DNA of 64,000 nucleotides from Acidocella sp. (GTDB taxonomy: Bacteria > Pseudomonadota > Alphaproteobacteria > Acetobacterales > Acetobacteraceae), in contig NZ_DAIEIF010000013.1 in the NCBI RefSeq assembly GCF_027352905.1, positions 1 to 64,000 on the forward strand, given 5' to 3'. Position 1 is the first letter of the stretch. The number at the start of each line of letters is the position of its first letter. The position numbers and the translations under genes are program-made. Under the pieces are notes generated by a model. That model had not been told where the DNA came from and searched no databases. It saw only the letters and a list, made by a program, of their open reading frames with translations. Below are positions 3,139 to 18,488 of this stretch, one piece after another.

Positions 3139-4926
3139 ATGTCGGATCGGATCATACGAATCGGTTGCGCGTCCGGGTTCTGGGGCGACACGCCGGAGGC
3201 TGTCGGACAATTATTGACGAAGGGCAAAATCGATTACCTCGTCTTCGATTATTTGGCTGAGGTGACGATGTCGCTCATGGCGCGCGCCCGGGCCAAGGAG
3301 CCGGAGGCCGGGTTCGCCCCTGATTTCGTCAAGGCGCTCATTCCCTGGCTGGGAGAGATCAAGCGCCAGGGCATCAAGGTGGTGGCCAATGCCGGTGGGG
3401 TGAATCCGCGCGGCTGCCGGGACGCGCTGGCCAAGGCCGCCGCGGCGGCTGGGGTCGATTTGTCCATCGGCGTGGTGCTGGGCGATGACCTGCTCGACCG
3501 CGCCGATGAGATCCGCGCGCGGGGTGTGACCGAAATGTTCTCCGGCGCGCCCTTTCCCCAGGACGTCTGGAGCATGAATGCCTATCTCGGCGCCCGGCCC
3601 ATCGCCGCGGCGCTGGATGCCGGGGCGGAGGTGATCATCACCGGCCGCTGCGCTGACAGCGCCGTGGCGCTGGGGCCGCTGATGCATGAGTTCGGCTGGG
3701 GTGATGAGGATTGGGACCGGCTCAGCCAGGGCTCGTTGGCGGGCCATCTCATCGAATGCGGGCCGCAAGGCACGGGCGGCAATTTCACAGATTGGCGGGA
3801 TGTGCCGGGTTGGGACGATATGGGCATGCCCATCGTCGAAGTCTCGCCGGACGGCAGCTTCATCATGACCAAGACGCCCGAGACCGGCGGCCTGGTGGTG
3901 CCGGGCTCGGTGGGCGAGCAGATGCTCTATGAGATTGGCGATCCGCAGAATTACATCCTGCCCGATGTGATCTGCGACTGGTCCGGGGTGACGCTGACCC
4001 AGGCGGGGCCGGACCGCGTGCTTGTCAAAGGGGCAAAGGGGCGCGGCCGCACCTCCAGCTACAAGGTTTCCGCCACCTACGCCGATGGCTGGCGCTCCAT
4101 AGCCACTCTGACCCTCGCCGCCATTGACGCCCCCGCCAAGGCCGAGCGGGTGGCGGAGGCGATTCTCACCCGTTGCCGCCGCCTTTTTCGCGGCAAGAAT
4201 CTGGGCGATTTCCGTGAGGTCAGCGTCGAGGTGCTGGGCGCGGAGGCCTCCTATGGCGCCAATGCCCGCGCCCAGACGCGGGAGGTGGTGTTGAAGATCG
4301 GCGTCATCCATGACGACCGCCGCGCTCTCAATATCTTCGCGGGCGAGATCGCGCCGATGGCGATTTCCACCGCTCAGGGCCTCACCGGTTTTTTCGCTGG
4401 CCGTCCCAAGGTGCAGCCGGTGGTGCGGTTGTTCTCCTTCCTGCAAGAGAAGGCGGATACGCCGGTAACGGTGGAAGTTGATGGCCGGCAGGTGCCGGTG
4501 AAACTCGCCACCGACGCGGTGACGCTTCCCGCCGCGCCTTTGCCGGCCCGGCCCGCCGCCGCGCCCGGCCCCCGCGCCATGAATGTGAAGCTGGCGGCTC
4601 TGGCCTGGGGGCGCTCCGGCGACAAGGGCGATATCGCCAATATCGGCCTGCTCGCCCGCAAGCCGGACTATCTCCCCTATATCCGCGCGGCGGTGACCGA
4701 GGATGCAGTGAAGGCTTATTTCGCCCATTTCTGCAAAGGCAGGGTCGAGCGGTTCGATCTGCCGGGTAGTCATGCCTTGAATTTCCTGCTGCATGAAGCG
4801 TTGGGCGGCGGCGGCATCGCCTCGGTGCGGATCGACCCGCAGGGCAAGGGCTACGCCCAGATGCTGTTGGATATGGAGGTGCCGATTCCGGAGGAACTCG
4901 CGCAGCGCGACAGGTTGGCGGCATGA
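3139..4926 (+). CDS. atuA: AtuA-like acyclic terpene utilisation family protein (DUF1446)
   Basis: This 595-residue protein has the two parts seen in the AtuA family. The N-terminal domain (about 1-450) contains GCASGFWGDTPEA, DYLAEVTMSLMARA, NAGGVNPRGC and ITGRCADSAVALGP. The C-terminal ferredoxin-fold-like domain (about 490-590) carries RSGDKGDIANIGL. AtuA is required for citronellol/geraniol use in Pseudomonas but has no assigned reaction; homologues commonly sit beside acyl-CoA carboxylases of the geranyl/methylcrotonyl type, as here. A Shine-Dalgarno GGAGG precedes the ATG. Its stop overlaps the biotin carboxylase start (ATGA), implying coupled translation. The family call is strong; involvement with terpenes specifically is inferred from context. 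Confidence 0.9.
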   Translation: MSDRIIRIGCASGFWGDTPEAVGQLLTKGKIDYLVFDYLAEVTMSLMARARAKEPEAGFAPDFVKALIPWLGEIKRQGIKVVANAGGVNPRGCRDALAKAAAAAGVDLSIGVVLGDDLLDRADEIRARGVTEMFSGAPFPQDVWSMNAYLGARPIAAALDAGAEVIITGRCADSAVALGPLMHEFGWGDEDWDRLSQGSLAGHLIECGPQGTGGNFTDWRDVPGWDDMGMPIVEVSPDGSFIMTKTPETGGLVVPGSVGEQMLYEIGDPQNYILPDVICDWSGVTLTQAGPDRVLVKGAKGRGRTSSYKVSATYADGWRSIATLTLAAIDAPAKAERVAEAILTRCRRLFRGKNLGDFREVSVEVLGAEASYGANARAQTREVVLKIGVIHDDRRALNIFAGEIAPMAISTAQGLTGFFAGRPKVQPVVRLFSFLQEKADTPVTVEVDGRQVPVKLATDAVTLPAAPLPARPAAAPGPRAMNVKLAALAWGRSGDKGDIANIGLLARKPDYLPYIRAAVTEDAVKAYFAHFCKGRVERFDLPGSHALNFLLHEALGGGGIASVRIDPQGKGYAQMLLDMEVPIPEELAQRDRLAA

Positions 4927-6395
4927 GGAAAATATCTAGGCTTTTGATCGCCAACCGGGGTGAGATCGCGGCCAGGGTGGCGCGCACCGCCAAGGCGCGC
5001 GGGCTGGAGGTGGCGGTGCTGCGCCATGCGGCGGAGGAGGCGGGCCCGGCCCATGCCATCGCCGATCAGGTGGTGACGATCGAGGGGCCGACCCCGGTCG
5101 CGGCCTATCTCGACATTCCGCAGATCGTCGCCGCAGCGCGGAAAGCGGGGGCGGACGCGGTTCATCCCGGCTATGGGTTTCTCTCCGAGAATGCCGCGTT
5201 CGTGCGGGCGCTGGACGCGGCGGGGCTGATTTTCGTCGGCCCCACGGCGGAGGTGATCGACCTGATGGGCGATAAGGTGCGCGCCCGCGCCTTCGTGGCC
5301 GAGCGCGGCTTTCCGGTCGCGCCCTCGGCTATCGAGGACGACGACCCGGCCAGCTTCATCGCCCGTTCCCGCGCCGTCGGTTATCCGCTGCTTATCAAAC
5401 CCTCAGCGGGTGGCGGCGGCAAGGGCATGCGCATCGTGCGCGAGGATAGCCTGCTCGCCGCCGAGATCGAGACCGCCCGGCGCGAAGGACAGCGTTATTT
5501 TGGCGATGGGCGGCTATTTGTCGAGCGTTATATCGAGCGCCCCCGCCATATCGAGGTGCAGGTGATGGGGGACGGGCGCGGCAATGTCGTGCATTTCTGG
5601 GAGCGGGAATGCTCGATCCAGCGCCGCTTCCAGAAGATCGTCGAGGAAACGCCTTCCCCCGCGCTATCGCCCGCGCAACGCCTGGAGATTTGCGAAACGG
5701 CGGCGGGCATCGCCAGGGCTGTGAATTATCGCGGCGCGGGCACAGTGGAATTCATCTATGCCCAGGATGGCGGTTTTTATTTTCTGGAGATGAACACTCG
5801 CCTGCAGGTTGAGCATCCGGTGACTGAGATGGTGACAGGGTTCGATCTCGTCGCCGAACAGTTGCGCATCGCCGAGGGCGAGGGGCTGAGCACGGGCCAA
5901 GCCGATATTCGTCAGCATGGCCATTCCATCGAATTACGCATCTGCGCCGAGGACGCGGCGGCGGATTTCCGCCCGGCCATCGGAAAAATCCTCCTGCTCG
6001 ATGAGCCGCGCGGCGAGGGGGTGCGGGTGGATAGCGGCATTCTCGAAGGCGGCCGCGTGACGGCCGATTTCGACCCGATGCTGGCCAAACTCATCGTTCA
6101 TGGCGGCAACCGCGCCGAGGCCATCGCCCGCGCTCGCGCGGCGGTGCGCGATTACGTGATTCTCGGTGTCACCACAAATACCGGCTATCTCGATGCCATT
6201 CTCGCCCATCCCGCCTTCGCGGCGGGGAATGTTTCGACCGGGTTTCTGGCCGAGGAGGCCGAGACGCTGACCGCGCCGGGAGAGGATATGCGGGAGGCAC
6301 TGATTGCCGCCGCCGCGCTCTCCGATCAATGGCTGCTTTATGAGGTAGGGCAAATTTCCGAAATTCACCGGCGCATGGGCGCCTGGAGGAACTGA
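4923..6395 (+). CDS. acyl-CoA carboxylase, biotin carboxylase subunit (no carrier domain)
   Basis: This 490-residue biotin carboxylase makes carboxybiotin from bicarbonate and ATP. Visible marks are the N-terminal LLIANRGEIAARV, VHPGYGFLSENA, the ATP-grasp glycine loop SAGGGGKGMRIV, EMNTRLQVEHPVTEMV and the C-terminal RITADFDPML-like segment (GRVTADFDPMLAKLI). In LiuD, AtuF and MccA the same chain continues into a biotin-transfer and carrier domain and reaches about 650-670 residues. Here it stops after the carboxylase domain, and the carrier follows as a separate gene with a TGATG junction. The partner carboxyltransferase is at 6903. The likely substrate is a branched 2-enoyl-CoA (methylcrotonyl- or geranyl-CoA-like) or a saturated acyl-CoA; sequence alone does not decide. 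Confidence 0.93.
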   Translation: MRKISRLLIANRGEIAARVARTAKARGLEVAVLRHAAEEAGPAHAIADQVVTIEGPTPVAAYLDIPQIVAAARKAGADAVHPGYGFLSENAAFVRALDAAGLIFVGPTAEVIDLMGDKVRARAFVAERGFPVAPSAIEDDDPASFIARSRAVGYPLLIKPSAGGGGKGMRIVREDSLLAAEIETARREGQRYFGDGRLFVERYIERPRHIEVQVMGDGRGNVVHFWERECSIQRRFQKIVEETPSPALSPAQRLEICETAAGIARAVNYRGAGTVEFIYAQDGGFYFLEMNTRLQVEHPVTEMVTGFDLVAEQLRIAEGEGLSTGQADIRQHGHSIELRICAEDAAADFRPAIGKILLLDEPRGEGVRVDSGILEGGRVTADFDPMLAKLIVHGGNRAEAIARARAAVRDYVILGVTTNTGYLDAILAHPAFAAGNVSTGFLAEEAETLTAPGEDMREALIAAAALSDQWLLYEVGQISEIHRRMGAWRN

Positions 6396-6898
6396 TGCGG
6401 CGCATATTCGAGATCGGCGGCGAGGAGCGGGAGTTCTGGCTTTCCCATGATGGCAGGGGCTATGCGCTGCATGAGGGCGCGCGCCAATATTCCGCCGCTC
6501 TCACCCCGGCGGAGGGAAAGGGCGCCTATGTGCTGGAGTATGAAGGGCGGCGAATACCGCTGCGCCTTGCCGTGGGCGATGGAGCCACTTTCATCCACCT
6601 GAATGGCCGCGCCTGGGAGGTGGGCGTGATCGACCCCGCCGAGCGGCTGGCGGGCGCCGGGGCCGGGGCTGGCGGTGATGTGGTGCTGGCGCCGATGCCA
6701 GGTGTGGTTGTCTCCGTTGCCGTCCAGCCTGGCGACGCCGTGGTGGAGGGGCAGCCGATTCTCGTCATTGAGAGCATGAAGCTGGAAACCACGCTGACAG
6801 CGCCGCGCGGAGGCCGCGTGGCGGAAATTGGCTTCGGTCCGGGCGAGAGCTTCGGCCTGAAGGCCGTGCTGGCGCGGCTGGCGCCTGAGGAGGGTTGA
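6395..6898 (+). CDS. biotin carboxyl carrier subunit of acyl-CoA carboxylase
   Basis: This 167-residue protein corresponds to the C-terminal third of LiuD/AtuF-type alpha subunits. Residues about 1-85 look like the small beta-rich biotin-transfer linker, an Ala/Gly-rich hinge follows (86-94), and residues 95-165 form the biotinyl domain. The biotinylated residue should be Lys129 in ESMKLE (126-131); the common form is EAMKM, and the Ser/Leu variant is unusual but occurs in this class. Its ATG shares one base with the biotin carboxylase stop (TGATG), and the carboxyltransferase ATG follows four bases after its own stop, so all three subunits are translationally linked. The split appears to be a clean gene division, not a frameshift, because both chains begin and end at domain borders. 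Confidence 0.9.
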   Translation: MRRIFEIGGEEREFWLSHDGRGYALHEGARQYSAALTPAEGKGAYVLEYEGRRIPLRLAVGDGATFIHLNGRAWEVGVIDPAERLAGAGAGAGGDVVLAPMPGVVVSVAVQPGDAVVEGQPILVIESMKLETTLTAPRGGRVAEIGFGPGESFGLKAVLARLAPEEG

Positions 6899-6902
6899 GA
6901 GC

Positions 6903-8513
6903 ATGCGCAGATTCCAGAGCCGCATCGACACGAATGCCGCCGATTATAAGGAAAACTATGCCGCGATGACGGCGCGGCTGGCCGAGTTTCATGCCCGCCA
7001 GCACGCCGCCCGTTATGAACGGCCCCAGCGCGACCTCGACCGTCTGGCGCGGCAGAACAAGCTCGGCGTGCGGGAGCGGCTGAAGCTCCTGCTCGATCCC
7101 GGCACGCCGTTTCTGGAATTCTCCACCCTGGCCGCCTGCCGTGAATATGATGGCGAGGTGCCGGGAGCCGGTGTGGTGACGGGTATCGGCATCGTCCAGG
7201 GCCGGGAGGTGGCGATCCACGCCAATGACGCCAGCGTCAAGGGGGGGGCCTGGTATCCGCTCTCCGCGAAGAAAATCATCCGCCTCCTCGACGTCGCTTT
7301 GGAGAACCGTCTGCCGGTCGTGCATATCTGCGATAGCGCTGGCGGGTTTTTGCCGTTGCAGCGGGGCGTGTTTCCAGACCGTTATCTGGGCGGGCGGGTG
7401 TTCCGCAACCAGGTTCAGCTTTCCAAAATGGGCGTTCCGCAAATCGCCGTGGTGGGCGGGCATTGCACGGCGGGCGGCGCCTATGTGCCGGCGCTCAGCG
7501 ATTATAACGTCATCATCGAGGGCACCGGGGCGATCTTCCTGGGCGGGCCGCCGCTGGTGAAGGCCGCCACTGGCGAGGAGGTGGGGGTCCAGGAGCTGGG
7601 TGGAGCGGTTATGCATACCTCGGTCTCGGGCACCGCCGATTACCGCGCCAGCTCGGAACAGCATGCCTTTTCCCTAGCGCGTGAGATCGTCGGCCAGTGG
7701 AAGCGCCCTGCGAAGACGGTGATCGAAACCGCGCCGATCGAGGACCCGTTTTACGACCCCAAGGAGCTTTACGGCATCATTCCCAAGGACCGTAAAACCA
7801 ATTTCGACATGCGAGAGATCATCGCCCGGATCGTCGATGGGTCGCGGTTCCATGAATACCAGCCCGATTACGGCACCACCATCGTGTGCGGCTTTGCTCA
7901 TATCTGGGGTTACAAGGTCGGTATTCTTGCCAATAACGGGGTGCTGTTCAACGACAGCTCGCTGAAATCGGCCCATTTTATGCAGCTTTGCAACCAGAAC
8001 CGCACACCGCTCGTCTTCTTCCAGAACATCACAGGCTATATGGTTGGACGGCAATATGAGGAGCGTGGCATCACCAAGGATGGCGCCAAGATGCTGATGG
8101 CGCAGGGCGGCTCGGTCGTGCCGAAATTCACGGTGATCGCCAACGCTTCTTTCGGCGCGGGCAATTACGGCATGTGCGGACGGGCCTGGGATGCGCGCAC
8201 ATTGTTCATGTGGCCGCAGGCGGAGATTGGCGTGATGGGAGCGGAACAGGCGGCCAACACCCTGGCGGATGTGAAAATCCGTCAGCTGATGCGGGAGGGA
8301 AAGACATTGACCGAGGCGGAGATCGCCGCGATCCGCGAGCCTGTACTGGAAAGTTATAAGCGGGATATCGAGGCCTATACTTCGACCTCGGAGCTTTGGG
8401 ATGATGGGATTCTCGACCCGGTGGACACGCGCAACGCGCTTGGCATGTCTATTTCGGCGGCGCTGAACGCCCCGATCGAGACGCCACCGCATTACGGCAT
8501 ATTCCGAATGTAG
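6903..8513 (+). CDS. acyl-CoA carboxylase, carboxyltransferase (beta) subunit
   Basis: This 536-residue protein of the MccB/LiuB/AtuC/PccB family transfers the carboxyl group from biotin to the acyl-CoA. It begins with the family's N-terminal arm (RQNKLGVRERLKLLLDPGTPFLE), followed by the two crotonase-like halves: IHANDASVKGGAWYP and DSAGGFLPLQ in the first, then FFQNITGYMVGRQYE, ANASFGAGNYGMCGRA and PQAEIGVMGAEQAA in the second. GGPPLVKAATGEEV is the characteristic acyl-CoA-side loop of methylcrotonyl/geranyl-type subunits more than of propionyl-CoA subunits, so a branched enoyl-CoA substrate is favoured. It is the last gene of the operon that starts at 2335. Confidence 0.93.
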   Translation: MRRFQSRIDTNAADYKENYAAMTARLAEFHARQHAARYERPQRDLDRLARQNKLGVRERLKLLLDPGTPFLEFSTLAACREYDGEVPGAGVVTGIGIVQGREVAIHANDASVKGGAWYPLSAKKIIRLLDVALENRLPVVHICDSAGGFLPLQRGVFPDRYLGGRVFRNQVQLSKMGVPQIAVVGGHCTAGGAYVPALSDYNVIIEGTGAIFLGGPPLVKAATGEEVGVQELGGAVMHTSVSGTADYRASSEQHAFSLAREIVGQWKRPAKTVIETAPIEDPFYDPKELYGIIPKDRKTNFDMREIIARIVDGSRFHEYQPDYGTTIVCGFAHIWGYKVGILANNGVLFNDSSLKSAHFMQLCNQNRTPLVFFQNITGYMVGRQYEERGITKDGAKMLMAQGGSVVPKFTVIANASFGAGNYGMCGRAWDARTLFMWPQAEIGVMGAEQAANTLADVKIRQLMREGKTLTEAEIAAIREPVLESYKRDIEAYTSTSELWDDGILDPVDTRNALGMSISAALNAPIETPPHYGIFRM

Positions 8514-8523
8514 GGGCGTCGCC

Positions 8524-8553
8524 TTGACAGTCACAGATTTTCCCGCCCTATAT
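8524..8553 (+). promoter_or_regulatory. predicted sigma-70 promoter of the thiolase operon
   Basis: TTGACA (8524-8529) and CTATAT (8548-8553) are separated by 18 bases, a good match to a housekeeping promoter. It lies just after the carboxyltransferase stop, so the thiolase unit can be transcribed on its own. The inverted repeat at 8556-8569 falls where transcription would start. Confidence 0.5.
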
Positions 8554-8555
8554 GC

Positions 8556-8569
8556 CTAACAAACGTTCG
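8556..8569. promoter_or_regulatory. candidate repressor operator, CTAAC-AAAC-GTTCG
   Basis: Five-base arms around a four-base spacer, beginning two bases after the predicted -10 element, so a bound protein would block RNA polymerase. Both arms are identical to the site at 2248-2261 read on the opposite strand. No gene for the matching regulator is visible in the window. Confidence 0.5.
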
Positions 8570-8618
8570 AAATTGCCTTGGATAGAGCCGGGCGCCTGTA
8601 ATTTAAGGAGAGGATGCG

Positions 8619-9803
8619 ATGAGCGGAAAAGCCTATGTCGCCGGTGTCGGAATGGTGCCGTTCCAGAAGCCGGGAAAATCTGATAGTTACGATACCATGG
8701 CCACAGAGGCGGTGCGCGCCGCGCTGGCCGATGCCGGGATCGGCTATGAAAAGGTGCAGCAGGCCTATGCGGGGTATGTCTATGGCGATAGCACATGCGG
8801 CCAGCGGGCGCTTTACCATGTGGGGATGACCGGGATTCCCGTGGTTAATGTCAATAATAATTGCTCCACAGGCTCCACGGCGCTGTTTTTGGCCCGGCAG
8901 GCGGTGGAAAGCGGCGTGGTGGAATGCGCCCTGGCGCTCGGTTTCGAGCAGATGCAGCCAGGGGCCATCGGCTCGATGTTCAAGGACCGCATCAGCCCGT
9001 TCCAGTCTTTTGATGACGAGACGGATCATCTGGTCGGCCATGGCGAGATCCCGCTGGCGTTGCGTTATTTTGGCGGTGCGGGCAAGGCCCATATGGATGA
9101 ATTCGGCACGCCGCTGGAAACCTTCGCCAAGATCCGCGCCAAGGCCAGCCGCCACGCGGCGCGCAACCCCTTGGCGTTGTTCCGGCAGGAGGTGACGCCG
9201 GAGGAGGTTTTGCAATCCCAGGTGATCTGGCCGGGCGTGATGACCAAGCTCATGGCCTGCCCGCCGACTTGCGGCGCCGCCGCCGCCATCGTCTGCACCA
9301 AGGCCTTCGCGGAGCGGCACGGGCTGGATAGCTCGGTGCGCATCGCCGCTCAGGCGATGACGACCGACGGGCCCGAAACTTTCCAGGCGCATGACATGCG
9401 CGAGGTCGTGGGGTCCTCCATGGCGCGGCGGGCGGCGAACCAGGTCTATGAGGCCGCCGGTATCGGACCGGAAGATGTGGATGTGGTCGAGCTGCATGAT
9501 TGCTTCGCCCATAACGAACTTCTCACCTATGAGGCGCTCGGCCTTTGCGGCCGGGGCGAGGCGGCAAAATTTGTGGATGACGGTGACAATACCTATGGCG
9601 GCAAATACGTCACCAACCCTTCAGGCGGCCTGCTTTCCAAGGGGCATCCGCTTGGCGCCACCGGCCTCGCCCAATGCACCGAGCTGGTACAGCAATTGCG
9701 TGGGCAGTCCGGCCCGCGCCAGGTGGAGGGCGCGCGGCTGGCCTTGCAGCATAATCTGGGGCTGGGTGGCGCTTGCGTCGTGACGCTTTACGAAAAAGTC
9801 TGA
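8619..9803 (+). CDS. SCP2-type thiolase / acetyl-CoA acetyltransferase family protein
   Basis: This 394-residue protein belongs to the thiolase superfamily in the lipid-transfer (SCP-x) branch. The nucleophile is Cys82 in NNNCSTGSTA; the branch-typical HDCF motif (293-296) and GHPLGATG (342-349) supply the remaining catalytic residues, and the chain ends with the GLGGACVV segment. SCP-x thiolases cleave branched or sterol-derived 3-oxoacyl-CoAs, which fits a role in branched or cyclic acid breakdown. An AAGGAGAGG Shine-Dalgarno precedes the ATG. It heads the unit thiolase-SDR-ligase, with a promoter and an operator-like site directly upstream. No separate SCP2 sterol-carrier domain is attached. 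Confidence 0.9.
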   Translation: MSGKAYVAGVGMVPFQKPGKSDSYDTMATEAVRAALADAGIGYEKVQQAYAGYVYGDSTCGQRALYHVGMTGIPVVNVNNNCSTGSTALFLARQAVESGVVECALALGFEQMQPGAIGSMFKDRISPFQSFDDETDHLVGHGEIPLALRYFGGAGKAHMDEFGTPLETFAKIRAKASRHAARNPLALFRQEVTPEEVLQSQVIWPGVMTKLMACPPTCGAAAAIVCTKAFAERHGLDSSVRIAAQAMTTDGPETFQAHDMREVVGSSMARRAANQVYEAAGIGPEDVDVVELHDCFAHNELLTYEALGLCGRGEAAKFVDDGDNTYGGKYVTNPSGGLLSKGHPLGATGLAQCTELVQQLRGQSGPRQVEGARLALQHNLGLGGACVVTLYEKV

Positions 9804-9825
9804 AGTCCAAGAAGGATAACAACAT

Positions 9826-10656
9826 ATGGCAGGAAAGCTCCAGGACCGCGTGGCTCTGGTTTCAGGGTCCGGGCGCGGCATTGGCCGCGCCATCGCGCTC
9901 AAGCTGGCATCGGAAGGTGCGCGGGTGGTGGTGAACGATCTCGATGAAGCCCCCGCGAAAGAGACCGCGGAGGCGATCCGCGCCGCCGGAGGCAAAGCCG
10001 AGGTTTGCGCGGGCAGCGTGACCGAGGCCGGCTTCGCCGAGCGTTTCGTGCAGACCGGCATGGATGCCTTTGGCGGGCTGGACATCATCGTCAATAATGC
10101 CGGCTATACCTGGGACAGCGTGATTCAGAAAATGACCGATGAGCAATGGTACGCCATCATTGACGTCCATCTCACCGCGCCCTTCAGAATTTTGCGGGCC
10201 GCCCAGCCGATCATCAGCGCTCTCGCCAAGGAGGAAGCGGCGGATGGGCGTGAGGTGTTCCGCAAGGTGGTGAATATTTCTTCGATCGCTGGAACGGGCG
10301 GCAATGCCGGCCAGATCAATTATTCGGCTGGCAAGGCCGGTATTCTCGGCGTGACCCGCACCATGGCCAAGGAGTGGGGGCGCTATAAGGTCAATGTCAA
10401 TGCGGTAGCCTTCGGCCCGATCCGCACCCGCCTGACCGAGGGCAGTGCCAAGGGCAACAGCACCATCAAGATCGAGGATCGCGAGATCAAGGTGGGCGTG
10501 AGTCCGGCTTTGCTGACTCAAATGGAACAGATGATCCCGCTCGGCCGGGTGGGCACGCCTGAGGAAGCGGCGGGGGCGGTTTACCTTTTCTGCGCGCCGG
10601 AATCCAACTTCATCTCCGGACAATATGTCATTTGCGGCGGTGGCTTCAATATGTGA
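9826..10656 (+). CDS. SDR family oxidoreductase (3-hydroxyacyl-CoA dehydrogenase-like)
   Basis: This 276-residue classical short-chain dehydrogenase has GSGRGIG (14-20) for NAD(P) binding, NNAGY (90-94), the catalytic Ser at 152/153, and Tyr166-x3-Lys170 in NYSAGK. Unlike the SDR at 1305, the active site is complete. A region between 205 and 240 (ending in LLTQMEQMIPLGR) is longer than in FabG. It sits 22 bases after the thiolase and before the acyl-CoA ligase, so it most likely oxidises the 3-hydroxyacyl-CoA made by a crotonase to the thiolase substrate. A FabG-like biosynthetic role is possible but less likely here. Confidence 0.87.
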   Translation: MAGKLQDRVALVSGSGRGIGRAIALKLASEGARVVVNDLDEAPAKETAEAIRAAGGKAEVCAGSVTEAGFAERFVQTGMDAFGGLDIIVNNAGYTWDSVIQKMTDEQWYAIIDVHLTAPFRILRAAQPIISALAKEEAADGREVFRKVVNISSIAGTGGNAGQINYSAGKAGILGVTRTMAKEWGRYKVNVNAVAFGPIRTRLTEGSAKGNSTIKIEDREIKVGVSPALLTQMEQMIPLGRVGTPEEAAGAVYLFCAPESNFISGQYVICGGGFNM

Positions 10657-10701
10657 TCGTTCAGAGAACGTAACTGAGCGGTTAATGACAGAGGAAGGCG
10701 T

Positions 10702-12342
10702 ATGATCCAGATTCAGTTGAACCCGGCGCTGGCCGAGCAACATCGGCGCGGCGGTTTTTGGCATGATAAGACTTTGCTGGATTATCTGGATGCGCTTCCG
10801 CCGGAACGGCTGGATTCGGTGGCTGTCACCGACATCAACAGCATGACCGGCCAAGCCACCACTTTATCTTATCGCCAGCTCATGCGCTTATCCAAGCGCA
10901 TCGCCCTCGGCTTGATCGAGCTGGGGGTGGAGCGAGGGGAGGTGGTTTCCTACCAATTGCCGAATTGGTGGGAGTTCATCGCCTTGCATTTGGCCTGTCT
11001 GCATATCGGCGCCGTCACCAACCCGGTCATGCCTATTTTCCGCCAGCGTGAGCTTGGTTTCATGTTCAACCTTGCCGAAAGCCGGGTGGTGGTGGTGCCG
11101 CAATATTTCCGCGGTTTCGACCATCTGGAGATGATGCGCGAAATTCAACCCAATCTGCCCCGGCTTACGAGAGTCTTCGCGATCGGCGGTGAAGGAGACG
11201 CCTCCTTCGAAAAATTCTTCCTGGACCAGCGGCGGGAGGATGATCCGGCCGCCGAGGCGTTGTTGCGCGAACGGCGGATGAAGCCGGACGAGGTGATGGA
11301 ATTGCTTTATACCTCCGGCACCACCGGCGAGCCGAAGGGGGTGCTCCATACATCCAACACCCATTTCGCCAATCTCATCGAGATTATCCGCCGCTTTGGA
11401 CTGAGCGGGAACGACATTTGCTATATGCCCTCGCCGATGGCGCATCAGACCGGCTTTCTTGCCGGCATGGAGATGGCGATCACTCTCGGCACTAAGCTGG
11501 TCCTCCAGGACATCTGGGACGCCGAGGTGGGGCTGGGCCGCATTCAGGACGAAAACGTGACCTTCATGATGGGGGCCACGCCTTTCATCGCGGATCTCGC
11601 CGATCATCCCAATCTGGCGCAATACGATATCGCCTCGCTGCGGATCTTCCTTTCGGCGGGGGCGCCCATTCCCCGTGCCCTGGTGGAGCGCGCCACGGAG
11701 CGGCTGGGAGCGCGCATCGTCTCGGCCTGGGGCATGACGGAGAATCTTCTCGTCACCTCGACGAAGCTGGATGACCCGCCGGAGAAAGTCTTCGGCACCG
11801 ACGGCGTGCCCGTTCCGGGCATGAAAATCCGCGTGGTCGGGGCGGAGGGGCAGGTGCTGGGTCCGGATCAGGAGGGCGTTTTGCAATCCCAGGGGCCGAG
11901 CCATTTCGTTGGCTATCATTCCCGGCCGGAATTATATGACATGACGGAGGATGGCTGGTTCAATACGGGCGATCTGGCCTGGATCGACACTGATGGCTAT
12001 GTCCGGATAACCGGGCGGGCGAAGGACATCATCATTCGCGGCGGTGAGAACGTGCCAGTGGTCGAGATCGAGGAAGTGCTCTACCGCCATCCCTTCATCC
12101 AGGCGGCAGCGGTGGTCGGCAAGCCGGACCCGCGCCTGGGCGAGCGTGGCGTGGCCTATGTGGTCCTCCATGCCGGGCGCAACTTGACGATGGAAGATCT
12201 GCGGGCCCATCTGGAACAGTTCAAGATGGCCAAGCAGTATTGGCCGGAGGAGTTGATCGTGATGGATGAGTTACCGCGTACACCGAGCGGTAAGATTCAA
12301 AAATTCCGGTTGAGGCAGATGGCGGTGGAGGCGGCAGCCTGA
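10702..12342 (+). CDS. AMP-dependent acyl-CoA synthetase, cyclohexanecarboxylate-CoA ligase-like
   Basis: This 546-residue ANL ligase has the complete set of family motifs: YTSGTTGEPKGVLHT (phosphate loop), GWFNTGDLAW and GRAKDIIIRGGENV (hinge region), and PRTPSGKIQKF with the adenylation lysine Lys531. The N-terminus (QLPNWWEFIALHLACL, VMPIFRQRELGFM) is of the AliA/cyclohexanecarboxylate-CoA ligase type. It makes an acyl-CoA from a free acid, ATP and CoA. It is the third gene of the thiolase operon and a paralogue of the truncated ligase at 1-399, so the island can activate two acids, or one acid at two stages. The substrate is not established. Confidence 0.9.
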   Translation: MIQIQLNPALAEQHRRGGFWHDKTLLDYLDALPPERLDSVAVTDINSMTGQATTLSYRQLMRLSKRIALGLIELGVERGEVVSYQLPNWWEFIALHLACLHIGAVTNPVMPIFRQRELGFMFNLAESRVVVVPQYFRGFDHLEMMREIQPNLPRLTRVFAIGGEGDASFEKFFLDQRREDDPAAEALLRERRMKPDEVMELLYTSGTTGEPKGVLHTSNTHFANLIEIIRRFGLSGNDICYMPSPMAHQTGFLAGMEMAITLGTKLVLQDIWDAEVGLGRIQDENVTFMMGATPFIADLADHPNLAQYDIASLRIFLSAGAPIPRALVERATERLGARIVSAWGMTENLLVTSTKLDDPPEKVFGTDGVPVPGMKIRVVGAEGQVLGPDQEGVLQSQGPSHFVGYHSRPELYDMTEDGWFNTGDLAWIDTDGYVRITGRAKDIIIRGGENVPVVEIEEVLYRHPFIQAAAVVGKPDPRLGERGVAYVVLHAGRNLTMEDLRAHLEQFKMAKQYWPEELIVMDELPRTPSGKIQKFRLRQMAVEAAA

Positions 12343-13209: not shown

Positions 13210-14397
13210 TCAGTACGATTTGGGCAGGCCCAACACGTGTTCGCCAATATAGTTGAGCAGCATCTCGTTATTGATCGGCGCGATTTTGAGCAGGCGCAGC
13301 ATGGGCCAGAGCGTGACGACGTCGTAATCCCGGTCGAAGCCATAGCCGCCATGGGTCTGCAACGCCGCCTCCACCGCCGCCACGGCGGCCTCGGAGCCGA
13401 GCAGCTTGGCCATGTTGGCATGGGCGCCGGCATCCTCCCCGGCATCGAAGCGTTCGGCGGCGGTGTAGGTCATCAGCCGGGCGGCCTCGATCTGGGCCTT
13501 GGCCATGGCCATGCGGTGCTGCAAGGCTTGGTAGGAGCCAATGGGCTTGCCGAAGGGTTTGCGCTCCTTGGAATAGGCCACCGCCTTGGCGAGAGCATAA
13601 TCCCCCATGCCCAGCGCGGCCCCGGCGGCGAGCAGGCGCTCGGAGTTCAGCCCCTCGAACATCAGCTTGGCGCCTTTGCCCGCCTCGCCGATCAGAGCAT
13701 CGGCGGGGAGTTCGACATCGTCGAAGAACACCATATATTGCCGCTCGGCGGTTTCCACCTGGATGTTGAGTTGCTGGAGCTTGATGCCGGGTGTGTTCAT
13801 GTCGAGCACGAAAAGGGACATGCCCTCGGTGCGGTTCTTGACTTCCGAGGCGCGGGTTGTGCGTGCGACGACGAGCATGAAATCGGCGTCCCGCGCACCG
13901 GAGATGAAGACCTTCTGGCCTTTGAGCGTCCAGCCACCCTTGCCATTCGGCGTGGCCAGCGTGTTCATCGCGAAACTATTGGTGCCGGCATTGGGTTCGG
14001 TGATGGCAAAGCACATCTTCTTTTCGCCAGTGCAGGTCGGGGTGACGTATTTTCTAATCTGCTCGGGCGTGCCGTTGCGCACGATGGGCACGCGGCCCAA
14101 CCCGGTAACGACGAGAAATAGCGTCGGCACACCCGCCAAAGCCAGAGCCTCGTTGAGCACGGTGATCTCCAGCACGCCGCCGCCCGAGCCGCCATATTCC
14201 TCGGGAATGGAGAGGCCGAGCAGGCCGAATTCGCCCAGCTTGGCCCAAAGCTCATCAGGAAAACGGTCTTCCTTGATGCATTCCAGAATGTAGGCGCGGC
14301 CATATTGGGCGGTGACGCCGCGCGTGGCCTCCTGAATATCGCGGATGCGCGATTGTAGCGAATCCATCGAGGTGCGATTTTGGGTTTGGACGTCCAT
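13210..14397 (-). CDS. acyl-CoA dehydrogenase family protein
   Basis: This 395-residue flavoprotein introduces a 2,3 double bond into an acyl-CoA. It has CFAITEPNAGTNS and GQKVFISGARDAD (FAD/substrate contacts), RKPFGKPIGSYQALQHRMA and the C-terminal HGGYGFDRDYDV. The usual IYEG catalytic glutamate is replaced by IAPINNEM, but Glu253 in GLNSERLLAAG sits where isovaleryl-CoA and long-chain dehydrogenases carry their catalytic base, so the enzyme should be active. The start was placed at ATG 14397, which follows AAGGAGA; an upstream in-frame extension lacks such a site and overlaps the thioesterase gene. It is the last gene of the leftward dehydrogenase/MoxR operon. Confidence 0.9.
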   Translation of the reverse strand: MDVQTQNRTSMDSLQSRIRDIQEATRGVTAQYGRAYILECIKEDRFPDELWAKLGEFGLLGLSIPEEYGGSGGGVLEITVLNEALALAGVPTLFLVVTGLGRVPIVRNGTPEQIRKYVTPTCTGEKKMCFAITEPNAGTNSFAMNTLATPNGKGGWTLKGQKVFISGARDADFMLVVARTTRASEVKNRTEGMSLFVLDMNTPGIKLQQLNIQVETAERQYMVFFDDVELPADALIGEAGKGAKLMFEGLNSERLLAAGAALGMGDYALAKAVAYSKERKPFGKPIGSYQALQHRMAMAKAQIEAARLMTYTAAERFDAGEDAGAHANMAKLLGSEAAVAAVEAALQTHGGYGFDRDYDVVTLWPMLRLLKIAPINNEMLLNYIGEHVLGLPKSY

Positions 14398-14422
14398 GAG
14401 GGTCTCCTTGGGTTCCGGGGGG

Positions 14423-14917
14423 TTATTTTTGGTTCCGTGGCCAGAAAATGCGCCATATTCCCTTGGCCGTGGCGCAGATTTTGCCGCTGGAATCACGAAA
14501 GTCGCCTTCGGCGAAGGCCACGGTTTTGCTGGCGCGCACAACGCGGCCATGAGCCTCGAAATGCGAGCCCATGGCGGCGTTGAGAAAGGTGATGTCGAGA
14601 TTGATGGTAAACTGGCGCAGATCCGAGGGGTTGATCTCCTGCGCTTCCGGTAAGGCCATCAGAGATGACATGATGGCCCAGCCCAGCGCACCGTCGAACA
14701 TATAGGAAATGACACCGCCATTGAGCACGCTGCTGTTGAGTTCGTTGTCCGTGCCGCCGCCGCCCAGCTGATCCGGCCGTATTTGCGGCAGGCGCACGAC
14801 AGCGCGGCCGATTCCGGTTTCTTCCACCTCCAGCCCCTGCGCCTTGAGAAACGGGCTCTCGTTCCATTTTTGCTTCCAGGCGGCGATGCGGTCTTGCGGG
14901 GTGGTGGCACTGTCCAA
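14423..14917 (-). CDS. PaaI-family hotdog thioesterase
   Basis: This 164-residue protein has a single hotdog domain of the PaaI type, which hydrolyses acyl-CoA thioesters. The signature region reads LNGGVISYMFDGALGWA: the Asp and small residues are conserved, but the usual His of HGG is Asn, a variant that may change rate or substrate. The chain continues with the typical beta-strand segments (FTINLDITFLNAAMG, GRVVRASKTVAFAEGDFRD). It lies 31 bases after the VWA gene and 25 bases before the acyl-CoA dehydrogenase, on the same strand. A likely role is release of dead-end CoA esters or of a free acid end product. Confidence 0.85.
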   Translation of the reverse strand: MDSATTPQDRIAAWKQKWNESPFLKAQGLEVEETGIGRAVVRLPQIRPDQLGGGGTDNELNSSVLNGGVISYMFDGALGWAIMSSLMALPEAQEINPSDLRQFTINLDITFLNAAMGSHFEAHGRVVRASKTVAFAEGDFRDSSGKICATAKGIWRIFWPRNQK

Positions 14918-14948
14918 AGAAAGGTCTCCTTTATTTGTAAGATCAAGC

Positions 14949-16376
14949 TCAGGCGCTGGCCGCGTGCGTGCGCAGCAGCGCGTCGAGCGTGCTTTCCAGA
15001 TGTTTAAGGGAGTTGCACTCCCTGGCTATATGGCAATAGGGCGCATAGCGTTTCATCTCGGAATCACCGAGACCCCAGAATGAGACCGGTTCCGGATTGA
15101 GCCAGATGACGCGGCGCGCGCGGTCATGGAGCATGCGCATTACCTCGCTATGCGCCTCACCGCGATTGTTGCGCGCGTCGCCTAGGAACAAAATCGTGGT
15201 GCGGCGGTCGATCTGGTCGAGCAATTGTTCTTCGATATCGAGCAATGTCTGCCCGTAATCGCTGCCGGAGCCGCCCACGGCGTGGATGACCTTGTCCACC
15301 GCCTGCTCCACCGGCAGATGTTCGAATGTCTCGCTGATATCCACGAGATGATTGATAAAAGCGTAGCTGCGCACGCCGCTCATCTGCTCATCGAGGCTGT
15401 AGAGAAACAGCAGTAGGAAGCGCGCATATTGACGCACTGAGCCGCTGACGTCGCAAATGGCGATCACACGGGGCCGGTCCACCACCTTGGTGCGCCAAAA
15501 GGTCTCGAACAGGATACCGCCATAGGCGGCGTTGCGGCGCAGGGTTTTGCGGAAATCGAGCTGGCCGCGCACTCTCTGCTTTTTGCGCTGGGCATGCCGC
15601 TCGGCCAGGCGCTTGGCCATTTTGCGGACGATGACATGCATGCGTTCGAAATCGCGGTTCTCGATATTGGAGAGTTTTTGCGTCTGCAAGAACTCGTCAT
15701 GCAACTGGCGCGTGGGAGCGGTACCATAAAGGGCCAGTTTGCGCTCGACGAAATTTCGCACCTCATTGAACAGGCGCTTGCGCGCGAGTTCCAGGGCCTC
15801 GGCGCGCACGGATATGCCGGCGCGCTTGGCCTCGGCGATGTCCCGGTCGAGCGATTCCAGCCCCATCGCCTGTTGGATTTTCTGCGTATAAAATCCTTTT
15901 TGCGTGAAGAACCAGATATCGGTGAGGCCAACCTCGCGCGCCGCTTCCTGCATGCGTTTGGCGAGCGCCGCGGAATCGCCGGAAAGGAGTAATTGAGAGA
16001 GCGCCTGCCCGCCCCGCCCGCGGCAGCCGCCGGCGCCGCCCGAGCCCATCTGGGAAGCTTCATTTTTGGAGGAGTCGGGGTTGGCGGGCTGCCCGGCATC
16101 GGGGCTGGCGGTTTCGCCCGCTTTCGCCGGGGATGATGGCTGAGCGCCGGGCTGCTGGAACGCATCGAAGCGGAAAAATCGGTCGAAAGCCTCGTCAAAT
16201 ACCGCCCGGTCGGCGCTGGTTTTGGCGAGGGTGGTGCCCAGCGCGTGTTTCAGCGTGGCGCGGTCGCCCCAGCCGACGAGTTCCACCGCGCGCGCGGCGT
16301 CGACCTGGGCGTTCAGATGCAGTTCGAGATCGCTGCCGCGCAGCGCCTTGAAAAAATCCTCAAGCGTGGCTTGCAT
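14949..16376 (-). CDS. VWA domain-containing protein, CoxE-like
   Basis: This 475-residue protein has a poorly conserved N-terminal half with an Ala/Pro-rich linker (about 95-120) and a C-terminal von Willebrand A domain (about 290-465). The metal-binding MIDAS motif is DVSGSV, with further support from NHLVDISETFEH and FLGDARNNRGEAHSEV. Proteins of this kind work with MoxR-type AAA ATPases as chaperones or activators of enzyme complexes, for example CoxE with CoxD in carbon monoxide dehydrogenase maturation. The partner ATPase gene overlaps its start by 17 bases. No molybdenum hydroxylase genes are nearby; the neighbours are acyl-CoA dehydrogenases and a thioesterase. Confidence 0.87.
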   Translation of the reverse strand: MQATLEDFFKALRGSDLELHLNAQVDAARAVELVGWGDRATLKHALGTTLAKTSADRAVFDEAFDRFFRFDAFQQPGAQPSSPAKAGETASPDAGQPANPDSSKNEASQMGSGGAGGCRGRGGQALSQLLLSGDSAALAKRMQEAAREVGLTDIWFFTQKGFYTQKIQQAMGLESLDRDIAEAKRAGISVRAEALELARKRLFNEVRNFVERKLALYGTAPTRQLHDEFLQTQKLSNIENRDFERMHVIVRKMAKRLAERHAQRKKQRVRGQLDFRKTLRRNAAYGGILFETFWRTKVVDRPRVIAICDVSGSVRQYARFLLLFLYSLDEQMSGVRSYAFINHLVDISETFEHLPVEQAVDKVIHAVGGSGSDYGQTLLDIEEQLLDQIDRRTTILFLGDARNNRGEAHSEVMRMLHDRARRVIWLNPEPVSFWGLGDSEMKRYAPYCHIARECNSLKHLESTLDALLRTHAASA

Positions 16377-17328
16377 AGGTTAAATCCGCTTCCTTGCGGG
16401 CGGCTTGCAGCAATTCCCGCATCTGCTCATTGGCCGTGGCGATATCCTGCTCGAATTTGAGAAACACGTTGAGCGTATCGCGCACCAGATCCAAGCTGAG
16501 ATGCTCGGCGTTGAGCAGCAGCAGGGTCTTGGCCCAGTCTATGGTTTCGCTGACCGAAGGCAGTTTCTTGAGATCCAGCTGGCGCACCGCCTGGATGAAG
16601 GCCACGAGCTCCCGGTTGAGCGTTGCGGACAGGCCGGGCACGCGCCGCTCGAGAATGCGCCGCTCCAAAGCGGGCTCGGGAAAGGAAATATGCAGATGCA
16701 GGCAACGGCGCTTGAGCGCGTCGCTCATCTCTCTGGTATTGTTGCTGGTCAGAAACACGATGGGCTTGACCTGGGCCTTGATGGTGCCGAGTTCCGGCAC
16801 CGAGACCTGGAAATCGGAAAGGACCTCCAGCAGAAAAGCCTCGAATTCCGGATCGGATTTATCGACCTCGTCGATCAGCAGCACGCAGCCATTTTCCTGG
16901 TGCAGCGCCTGATAAAGCGGGCGCGGTTCCAGAAAATGCTGGCTGAAAAACAGATCGTCATGGGCGTGCAGCCGCTCCATGGAGTCAGCCAGACCGGCGG
17001 CGCCTTGCATCATCTCGCCGAGCTTGTCCTTCAGCAGCTGGGTATAGAGCAATTGCTTGCCGTATTTCCATTCATACAACGCCTTCGATTCATCCAGCCC
17101 CTCATAGCACTGCATGCGGATCAACGGCACGCCGAGAAGCTCGGCCATGCTCTTGGCAAGTTCGGTCTTGCCCACGCCGGCAGGGCCTTCGATGAGGATC
17201 GGTTTCTCGAGATGAAAGCCGAGATAGACCGAGGTGGCGATGGCGGGACTGGCGATGTAATCGACGGAGGCGAAGCCGCGGGCAACGCTGTCGATGGAGG
17301 CGAATTGATCGGAATGGTCTGTTTTCAT
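16360..17328 (-). CDS. MoxR-family AAA+ ATPase (CoxD-like)
   Basis: This 322-residue AAA+ ATPase has Walker A GPAGVGKT (48-55), Walker B LLIDEVDKSD and sensor-1 FLTSNNTREMSDALKRR. The layout and length match the MoxR/CoxD group, which acts with VWA proteins in metallo-enzyme maturation or enzyme remodelling. Its ATG overlaps the stop of the upstream acyl-CoA dehydrogenase-like gene (ATGA), and its end overlaps the VWA gene, so dehydrogenase, ATPase and VWA protein are made in a coupled way. A chaperone or activase role on a dehydrogenase is an inference from this arrangement only. Confidence 0.9.
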   Translation of the reverse strand: MKTDHSDQFASIDSVARGFASVDYIASPAIATSVYLGFHLEKPILIEGPAGVGKTELAKSMAELLGVPLIRMQCYEGLDESKALYEWKYGKQLLYTQLLKDKLGEMMQGAAGLADSMERLHAHDDLFFSQHFLEPRPLYQALHQENGCVLLIDEVDKSDPEFEAFLLEVLSDFQVSVPELGTIKAQVKPIVFLTSNNTREMSDALKRRCLHLHISFPEPALERRILERRVPGLSATLNRELVAFIQAVRQLDLKKLPSVSETIDWAKTLLLLNAEHLSLDLVRDTLNVFLKFEQDIATANEQMRELLQAARKEADLTYASHA

Positions 17329-18488
17329 ATGGATAATGATTGCAACATCTGTTGCCCCTTCTGAAGTTGCCGAGACTGCGCGGCTCCGCGCGCTATGCCG
17401 AGCACAAGACGCAGGTCGCGGATGAAATCGGGCGCCGCCGCGCCTGGCTCAAGCAGGTGACGCGCCTCTAGCCAGGCTTCGCAAGCCGCCTGCCAGCGCT
17501 CGCACAGGCGGCGCGCGCCGACGGTGGAAAAGGCGAGCGCCTCGCCCCAGCCCTGCGCCTCAAGCTCGTGGGCGAGAGCGTCGCGCACGGCGTGCAAAGC
17601 CTCCCATTCGAGCCGCAGCGCCCCCATTTCCCGCAGGGTGTCGCTCTCCGCCGCGCCGCGCGCGGCCAGGGCCCCTGCGGCCCATTCCAGCTCATGCCGC
17701 ATGGCCCCGAGCAGCGGGCCTAGCAGCAGCGCGTCCTCGATCGCGCGCACCGGTTTGGCGATGGTCTCGAAACCCTGTCCGGGCGGGCCGATACGGCGGT
17801 TCTCCGGCACGCGGCAGGCCTCGAGCCGCAGATCGCAATGGCCCAGCGGCGCCAGCCCCTGCGCGCGCGGGTTGGGCAGGCGGGTGAGGCCCGGGGTTCG
17901 GGCATCCAGCAGGAAGGCGTCGAAGCGCTTGCGGCCATCCTGCTCACCGCTAATGGCGAGCACGATGATGGCGTCTGCGGCGGGGCCGTTGCTCACGAAC
18001 GCCTTTTGCCCGTCAAGTATCCAGCCCTCGCCAGTCTCATCCCGGATCGCCCGTGTTTGCAGATGTTTGGGGTGCGCCCCCGCGCCGGGCTCGGAGATGG
18101 CGAGCGCCAGCAGGCTTTCCCCCCGCGCCATGGCGGCGAGCAGCGCGCTGATCCAGCCGCTTTGCCCCGGGTTGCGCGTGAGCGGACCGAGCACGTAACG
18201 CCCGAGCATTTGCTGTAACATCCAGGCCATGCCCAGCCCCAGCCGGCCGGTGGCATGGGTCACTTGCTCCGCGAGGGTGCTGACCAGCACGGCATCGGCG
18301 GCGGGGGGATTCTCCCCCACCGCGAACCCCAGGCCGAGCATGCCGCGCTGGCCGAGATGGGCCCACCAGCCGCGCGGAAAGCCTCCACCCGTCTGGGCGG
18401 GCGCGGTCCGTAGCGCCTCATCCATGGCGCGCGGCCAGTCCGGCGGCGGTGAACCGGCTGAAATCGCTGCGGGGCGCGCGGTCGGCAT
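17325..18488 (-). CDS. divergent acyl-CoA dehydrogenase-like protein
   Basis: This 387-residue protein is recognisable as an acyl-CoA dehydrogenase by LALAISEPGAGAHP (about 127-140), DGQKAFVSNGPAADA and the middle beta domain. Glu251 (RAIEDALLLG) aligns with the helix-G catalytic base of isovaleryl/long-chain enzymes. The C-terminal helical domain is unusual: the RKPFG...Q motif and the HGGxG/FAD-contact motif of normal family members are absent and the region is Ala/Glu/Arg-rich. It may need another subunit or may have lost activity. It is the first gene of the operon with MoxR and VWA genes. A hairpin-like inverted repeat lies just upstream at 18520-18537. Confidence 0.8.
   Translation of the reverse strand: MPTARPAAISAGSPPPDWPRAMDEALRTAPAQTGGGFPRGWWAHLGQRGMLGLGFAVGENPPAADAVLVSTLAEQVTHATGRLGLGMAWMLQQMLGRYVLGPLTRNPGQSGWISALLAAMARGESLLALAISEPGAGAHPKHLQTRAIRDETGEGWILDGQKAFVSNGPAADAIIVLAISGEQDGRKRFDAFLLDARTPGLTRLPNPRAQGLAPLGHCDLRLEACRVPENRRIGPPGQGFETIAKPVRAIEDALLLGPLLGAMRHELEWAAGALAARGAAESDTLREMGALRLEWEALHAVRDALAHELEAQGWGEALAFSTVGARRLCERWQAACEAWLEARHLLEPGAAAPDFIRDLRLVLGIARGAAQSRQLQKGQQMLQSLSI

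Follow-up and report, generated by a model that had tools for sequence, protein, structure and literature searches.

Within a stretch of 64,000 nucleotides of Acidocella sp. DNA, hereafter the window (contig NZ_DAIEIF010000013.1, positions 1 to 64,000), a gene at 17325..18488 on the reverse strand encodes a degenerate acyl-CoA dehydrogenase (ACAD)-like protein (P0003, the 17325 protein) and is the first gene of a trio that it forms with the genes of a MoxR-family AAA+ ATPase and of a CoxE-type von Willebrand factor A (VWA) protein. The evidence leans, by somewhat better than an even chance, towards the trio encoding a dedicated three-gene machine in which the 17325-type protein is the remodelled partner of a NorQ/NorD-like motor. 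This reading is supported by the existence of a distinct 17325 family, by its predicted fold and the loss of two motifs, by tight genetic linkage, by purifying selection and by the NorD-like predicted structure of the VWA protein. Metal enzymes, Rubisco and respiratory complexes are known to be served by MoxR-VWA machines, and the kinds of component found here are all already known; it is their tight association with a degenerate ACAD that is new. As the initial annotation of this DNA had supposed, no ACAD activase is described in the literature searched, which lay mostly outside subscription journals, and the available portions of PMC9736018, PMC3733707 and PMC7688217, in which the terms occur apart, describe no link between MoxR and ACADs.

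A Family of ACAD-like Proteins Lacking Two Conserved Motifs

In Pfam, the 17325 protein is matched by the ACAD middle domain only (68 bits). Its predicted structure (mean predicted local distance difference test score (pLDDT) of 90.4 and predicted template modelling score (pTM) of 0.89, from 16 sequences) adopts an ACAD fold with the helical bundle retained, and the best Foldseek match is human isovaleryl-CoA dehydrogenase (IVD; 9jq4, TM 0.76). Across 30 genomes taken from the loci described below, for each of which up to 64 candidates were scored and the best match used, family members reach 320-508 bits with their own profile, the best other ACAD reaching 193. In phylogenetic terms, the family forms one clade of 36, apart from 18 ordinary ACADs; this clade includes the two members, from genomes G784 and G071, whose genes do not adjoin MoxR.

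For the comparison of motifs, 34 family members were aligned with the 18 ordinary ACADs; the two members without an adjacent MoxR (L149 and L150) were kept apart, and the member of L152 was trimmed to its last 400 residues since its open reading frame (ORF) runs long upstream. Residues S132, E133, P134, G137, A138, P140, N167, G168 and P169 are invariant in all 34 members, as are P214, H217, C225, R248, E251, D252, G261 and G289. Of these, E251 corresponds in the alignment to the "YER" Glu of IVD, which we take to be the catalytic residue. The residue that follows is an Arg in 16 of the 18 ordinary ACADs and an Asp in 34/34 family members; of the Glu-Arg pair at the IVD-type catalytic position, the family has thus kept the Glu and lost the Arg. 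The R..FG pattern, for which the sequence windows counted differed slightly between the two groups, is absent from every family member (0/34) and present in 14/18 ordinary ACADs, and near the C-terminus a pattern GG.G or GG.Y is likewise found in 0/34 and 15/18; the two aligned glycines of this C-terminal motif are present in all 18 ordinary ACADs and in none and two, respectively, of the 34 family members. The R..FG and HGG.G motifs presumably bind the flavin adenine dinucleotide (FAD) of the neighbouring subunit.

The picture is that of a family whose predicted ACAD fold is kept, whose pocket residues appear either kept or replaced by others that the family itself conserves, and whose R..FG and HGG.G motifs are gone; judged by its sequence, the 17325 protein is not classed as an active ACAD. 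The "abnormal C-terminal domain" that had been attributed to it is borne out as a loss of conserved motifs within an ACAD-like fold. The family so delimited is one that the Pfam and NCBIfam searches made here recognise only as ACAD-like.

The gene is open and under purifying selection, with a ratio of nonsynonymous to synonymous substitution rates (dN/dS) of 0.25-0.37 in five pairs drawn from the window together with its relatives in betaproteobacteria. This is about 2 to 8 times above the values of the other operon genes compared (0.03-0.09 for MoxR, 0.08-0.11 for the VWA gene and 0.04-0.12 for two ordinary ACADs). Decay of the 17325 gene was considered and rejected on account of its open reading frame and of the purifying selection seen in the five pairs.

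The MoxR ATPase and Its VWA Partner

The MoxR gene (P0001; 16360..17328, reverse strand) overlaps that of the 17325 protein by 4 nucleotides (nt), and the VWA gene (P0002; 14949..16376, reverse strand) overlaps MoxR by 17 nt. The ATPase belongs to the MoxR family (AAA_5, PF07728, 54.5 bits against a cut-off of 22), harbors readable Walker A (GPAGVGKT) and Walker B (LLIDEVD) motifs and has weak matches to midasin, NorQ and CbbQ among Protein Data Bank (PDB) sequences. The VWA protein is matched by VWA_CoxE (PF05762) with 119.8 bits; its metal-ion-dependent adhesion site (MIDAS) is made of the segments DVSGS, SDYG and GDARNN, and the DxSxS residues D309, S311 and S313 are invariant in 22 aligned rows. 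A segment of the RGxLDxRxT type, present in this protein and in 16 of the 21 other aligned rows (17/22), resembles, by sequence pattern alone, the NorD fingertip motif GRxLL/IxxxxT as given in the accessible part of PMC13036017. The model of the VWA protein (pLDDT 78.9, pTM 0.58) has as its best Foldseek match the NorD subunit of NorQD (9qhe_G); searched with the VWA profile, the PDB sequences yielded no chain at E <= 0.01.

In terms of nomenclature, the best NCBIfam matches are MadB for the MoxR protein and MadC for the VWA protein, and membership in both was rejected, as the scores of 310.6 and 143.4 bits fall far short of the curated cut-offs of 475 and 600, respectively. A MoxR-VWA pair linked to methanol dehydrogenase also falls under these cut-offs, and the literature on the names MadB and MadC returned nothing, or other proteins so named.

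Linkage of the Family to the MoxR-VWA Pair

The genetic linkage was assessed in the best 80 of at least 578 confirmed VWA relatives, chosen by VWA alignment alone and with no ACAD used in the choice; this sample is enriched for near relatives of the window VWA protein, and several of its loci end at contig edges. MoxR is found in 77 of the 80 loci, and a 17325-like gene lies directly upstream of MoxR in 15 (L046-L050, L052, L059, L060, L062, L078, L083, L090, L094, L104 and L114), to which the window is added. A gene picker overlooked some trio genes (in L048, L050 and L094, for example), which a search of all ORFs recovered. The trio loci span alpha-, beta- and delta-proteobacteria and are related, and therefore do not represent 15 independent events; in a tree of MoxR and VWA, they occupy four separated clades among lineages that have the pair only. 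At the 16 junctions between the 17325-type gene and MoxR, window included, the overlap is exactly 4 nt in 11 cases and 29 to 47 nt in three, the remaining two being gaps of 3 and 36 nt. The density of ACAD-like ORFs is 1.02 per kb within 100 bp of the pair, compared with 0.0031 per kb at 5-7.5 kb and 0.0041 per kb at 7.5-10 kb in the same loci. Pairwise distances among 25 trio members of the family track those of MoxR and VWA (r 0.94, equalled in 0/2000 permutations).

At the scale of genomes, the family (profile E <= 1e-65) and the VWA protein (profile E <= 1e-50) were searched in two family-wide draws totalling 498 genomes, with 4 to 7 candidates scored per genome, a depth at which a weak member could escape. 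The draw around Rhodopseudomonas palustris JSC-3b (G081, the source of L094) holds the family in 16/248 genomes and the VWA protein in 69/248; the draw around Extensimonas (G061, the source of L046) holds them in 6/250 and 10/250. All 22 family-bearing genomes carry the VWA protein and none of the 419 genomes without a VWA hit carries the family (hypergeometric probabilities of 3.2e-10 and 6.6e-10 for the two draws, kinship ignored). MoxR adjoins the family gene in 16/16 and 5/6 cases, respectively, and in 18 of 19 once the three genomes that had contributed rows to the profiles (G081, G085 and G061) are set aside. In a phylum-wide draw, the family was found only in the source genome (1/398). 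The survey of co-occurrence called for by the initial annotation gives a split answer: in the two family-wide draws the family is always accompanied by the VWA protein, and the pair often occurs without the family.

The cluster is probably shared horizontally with betaproteobacteria, because no MoxR match above 49% identity was obtained from 36 congeneric genomes, of which several are incomplete, while the window VWA protein has 86% identity to its counterparts in Extensimonas and in another Burkholderiales bacterium.

Two further observations concern the trio loci and their relatives. In a metagenome-assembled genome (MAG) of Desulfosudis oleivorans, a still more divergent ACAD-like gene (L109:11311-12318), in which the middle domain alone is recognised with 41 bits, overlaps the VWA gene at its end; it thus lies across the pair from the 17325-type position, and L109 is a sixteenth locus with an ACAD-like gene. 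In some genomes of Rhodopseudomonas type (L104, L155, L159 and L160), the trio is preceded by a long catalase gene, identified with Pfam in L104 and by a similar N-terminal sequence in the others.

A Proposed Mechanism and Its Alternatives

In the mechanism that we favor, the VWA protein would dock on the MoxR hexamer, by analogy with NorD on NorQ, and would hold an ACAD-fold partner, namely the 17325 protein, either by itself or together with an ordinary ACAD to which it is joined. ATP hydrolysis by MoxR would remodel this partner, and such remodelling would load, clear or assemble its reshaped flavin/substrate pocket. The physical contact, the direction of action, the cofactor and the reaction served are what we infer from the genes and models. 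More tentatively, and with odds that fall short of even, the ACAD paralogue may have given up ordinary catalysis and become the permanent third subunit of a maturase or activase that, driven by ATP, supplies ACADs with flavin or assembles them. A dedicated partner with the ACAD fold would bring a large family of flavoenzymes within the reach of MoxR-VWA machines, and one might then ask whether some ACADs need ATP-driven maturation; in addition, the trio constitutes a clean three-gene system in which to study how MoxR motors choose their clients.

Several points weigh against a dedicated machine. Linkage between genes does not amount to contact between proteins, the model of the VWA protein is of modest quality (pTM 0.58) and the mirrored distances could result from co-inheritance, that is, from shared descent alone. 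The trio is scattered among pair-only lineages in a tree of which some nodes are weakly supported. Neither the G784 nor the G071 member of the family lies beside MoxR: in G784, a distance of about 23 kb separates it from the VWA gene of the same contig, in a region with many acyl-CoA genes, and the G071 member is on a different contig from the VWA gene of that genome. No ACAD-like gene lies within 100 bp of the pair in 64 of the 80 loci; the 17325 family is missing from 53 of 69 VWA-bearing genomes in the G081 draw and from 4 of 10 in the G061 draw; and 18 of the 19 non-trio genomes among the 30 taken from the loci have no family member. The idea that pair-only genomes keep an ACAD-like gene elsewhere was rejected with this last count. 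Among the Bradyrhizobium-titled loci of the sample, 17 of 18 are without the family.

Dependence thus runs one way: in the two family-wide draws the family occurs only where the VWA protein does, and the pair is common without any ACAD. Since the pair is common without the family, it must have other work, or other clients. The notion that the pair is specific to ACAD operons has to be abandoned, the pair being widespread without the dehydrogenases; this does not extend to the 17325 protein. Of the link drawn earlier between MoxR-VWA and this odd protein, the genetic tie of a separate family to the pair holds, while activation of a flavin dehydrogenase is something that we still only infer.

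The conserved pocket residues would favor a ligand-binding client, while the lost motifs would also allow an adaptor. As an adaptor, the 17325 protein would be a pseudo-subunit, forming pairs with ordinary ACADs and passing these on to MoxR-VWA, the true clients being active ACADs encoded in trans. The retention of the predicted fold and of its helical bundle alongside the loss of two motifs is compatible with such a role, as is the presence of 5 to 33 further ACAD matches (E <= 1e-25) in each of the 11 trio genomes searched (11/11); moreover, MoxR-VWA also adjoins ordinary two-gene ACADs, and ACADs in which only one half of two is catalytic are described in the accessible part of PMC8399759. 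However, many of the positions that are conserved most strongly map to the presumed former active site, which is unexpected for a pure adaptor, and 11 of the 15 trio loci have no other ACAD within 5 kb, to the extent that they cover this distance, some of them being cut by contig ends, which leaves no fixed ordinary partner. The adaptor is, on balance, unlikely.

It is less likely still that the trio serves a client other than an ACAD, such as a metal or molybdenum enzyme, with the 17325 protein sensing a ligand or flavin and gating the motor. Related pairs do lie beside genes read by eye as molybdenum hydroxylase and beside methanol dehydrogenase genes, and the trio loci L155 and L157 are near molybdopterin oxidoreductases, but beyond the trio genes themselves no gene cluster is common to the trio loci within up to 10 kb per side. 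As for clustering by chance or as a passenger, in which the genes would be co-transcribed without a joint function, one operon can indeed hold unrelated genes and the betaproteobacterial clusters together with the window form one close group in the tree; yet adjacency in four separated clades and one-way co-occurrence in 22/22 genomes make this account very improbable. The dedicated machine, with the 17325-type protein as the remodelled partner, is thus the reading that we retain.

Genomic Surroundings of the Trio and of Related Pairs

The reading of ORFs with Pfam bears out the five leftward, closely spaced genes of the initial annotation: an ordinary ACAD (ACAD1), a PaaI thioesterase, the VWA protein, MoxR and the degenerate ACAD. 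ACAD1 (P0004; 13210..14397, reverse strand) has the Pfam ACAD N, middle and C-terminal domains; its preferred start is the ATG behind AAGGAG; the alternative 446-residue ORF extending to 14550 overlaps the thioesterase. The latter (P0005; 14423..14917, reverse strand) is a PaaI-type hotdog thioesterase with a TTG start (4HBT, PF03061, 35 bits), and PaaI matches occur as well in the betaproteobacterial trio clusters L151-L154. A third ACAD beyond the span annotated earlier, ACAD3 (P0006; 18595..19758, reverse strand), is an ordinary one with all three Pfam domains, encoded on the same strand 106 nt upstream of the degenerate ACAD. L046, L047, L048 and L050 also have an ACAD at the equivalent place, and these four loci and the window have an ordinary ACAD within 1.5 kb of the trio. 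ACAD1 and ACAD3 were considered as part of the conserved unit and rejected, ordinary ACADs within 5 kb accompanying only 4 of the 15 loci and the window, with further cases in the betaproteobacterial clusters L151-L154. In L094, an ordinary ACAD and a biotin-carboxylase-type gene lie beyond 5 kb, and L049 has other acyl-CoA-type genes nearby.

Divergently oriented catabolic genes (3139..12342, forward strand) encode, according to Pfam, an AtuA-family protein, a biotin carboxylase, a carboxyltransferase, an SCPx-type thiolase, an SDR protein and an acyl-CoA ligase; AtuA and carboxylase genes are likewise present in the betaproteobacterial trio clusters. No CoxD/CoxE-type molybdenum hydroxylase is found among the window genes annotated with Pfam between 0.5 and 21 kb, the only part of the genome searched. 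The source genome (2.3 Mb, 99% complete) has two VWA_CoxE matches, of which one is strong and the other, with 33 bits, weaker. Elsewhere in the window (34368-37850), a 1160-residue protein with POR and DUF6537 domains is of a kind that is presumably annotated as indolepyruvate ferredoxin oxidoreductase.

Pairs without the family lie in housekeeping-like neighbourhoods in Acidimicrobiia and in gltD-bearing loci in alphaproteobacteria, contexts established partly by eye; many neighbour names, such as gltB, nadD, molybdenum hydroxylase subunits and housekeeping genes, were assigned by eye from the sequence. A gltD-like gene shares the stretch with MoxR-VWA in L026, L027, L054, L056, L057, L058, L061 and L064. 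Glutamate synthase was rejected as a client, as six of these eight loci share further neighbours and inherited gene order may explain the association. On linear plasmids of Rhodococcus WAY2 and Mycobacterium dioxanotrophicus (L023 and L024), a related pair directly follows the gene of a methanol dehydrogenase dependent on N,N-dimethyl-4-nitrosoaniline (NDMA); NDMA-dependent methanol dehydrogenase is a possible client of the related actinobacterial branch of pairs.

Ordinary two-gene ACADs adjoin pairs without the family in L025, L085, L091, L177 and L179, and a fused double ACAD of 731 residues does so in L120. Burkholderiaceae-type loci have APH-family kinase genes near the pair (L051:7932-8990, L177:5716-6786 and L178:7965-9725), together with acyl-CoA ligase-like genes in all three and two ordinary ACADs in L177. 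In the MoxR-VWA tree, L112, from a MAG labelled Bifidobacterium breve, pairs with L115, from an Actinomycetota MAG, inside an Acidimicrobiia-type group; given this position, the MAG may be misnamed or the contig foreign.

Comparison with Known Systems

The trio is like NorQ/NorD in associating a MoxR protein with a VWA partner that has a MIDAS and a finger-like motif and whose model matches NorD best; it is unlike NorQ/NorD in that the partner gene is ACAD-like rather than one of nitric oxide reductase, and in the lack of a PDB sequence match to the VWA profile at the threshold given above. According to the accessible part of PMC13036017, the VWA finger of NorQD enters the NorQ pore and a NorD linker is remodelled; the part available of PMC9976466 presents the MIDAS as the likely binding site for acidic residues of the target. 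With CoxD/CoxE, which serve CO dehydrogenase and related molybdenum hydroxylases, the trio shares the PF05762 VWA_CoxE domain and a MoxR ATPase, but its MoxR is 45-50% identical to those of pairs whose gene clusters were assigned to this type by eye. Fumarate reductase is a flavin-containing dehydrogenase complex. RavA/ViaA is a MoxR-VWA pair associated with it, according to the portion available of PMC10585395; the client is different, and the likeness is known from descriptions rather than from sequence or architecture.

On the side of the dehydrogenases, IVD and other ACADs share with the 17325 family the fold, the middle domain and the position of the Glu; by comparison, all 34 aligned family members (34/34) have the Asp in place of the Arg and are without R..FG and GG.G. 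In the alpha2beta2 and fused ACADs of steroid degradation (ChsE4/5 and CasC), only one of two halves is catalytic, as described in the accessible part of PMC8399759; unlike these, the 17325 family keeps the Glu at that position and, in the 11 trio loci noted above, has no second ACAD within 5 kb. The complex I assembly factor ACAD9 differs in keeping its FAD until ECSIT binds, and in that no MoxR or VWA partner is mentioned in the available part of PMC10716376; as described there, it is similar in being an ACAD turned assembly factor that gives up its FAD. Should the 17325 protein prove to be a fixed subunit of an ACAD maturase or activase, it would represent a bacterial analogue of ACAD9.

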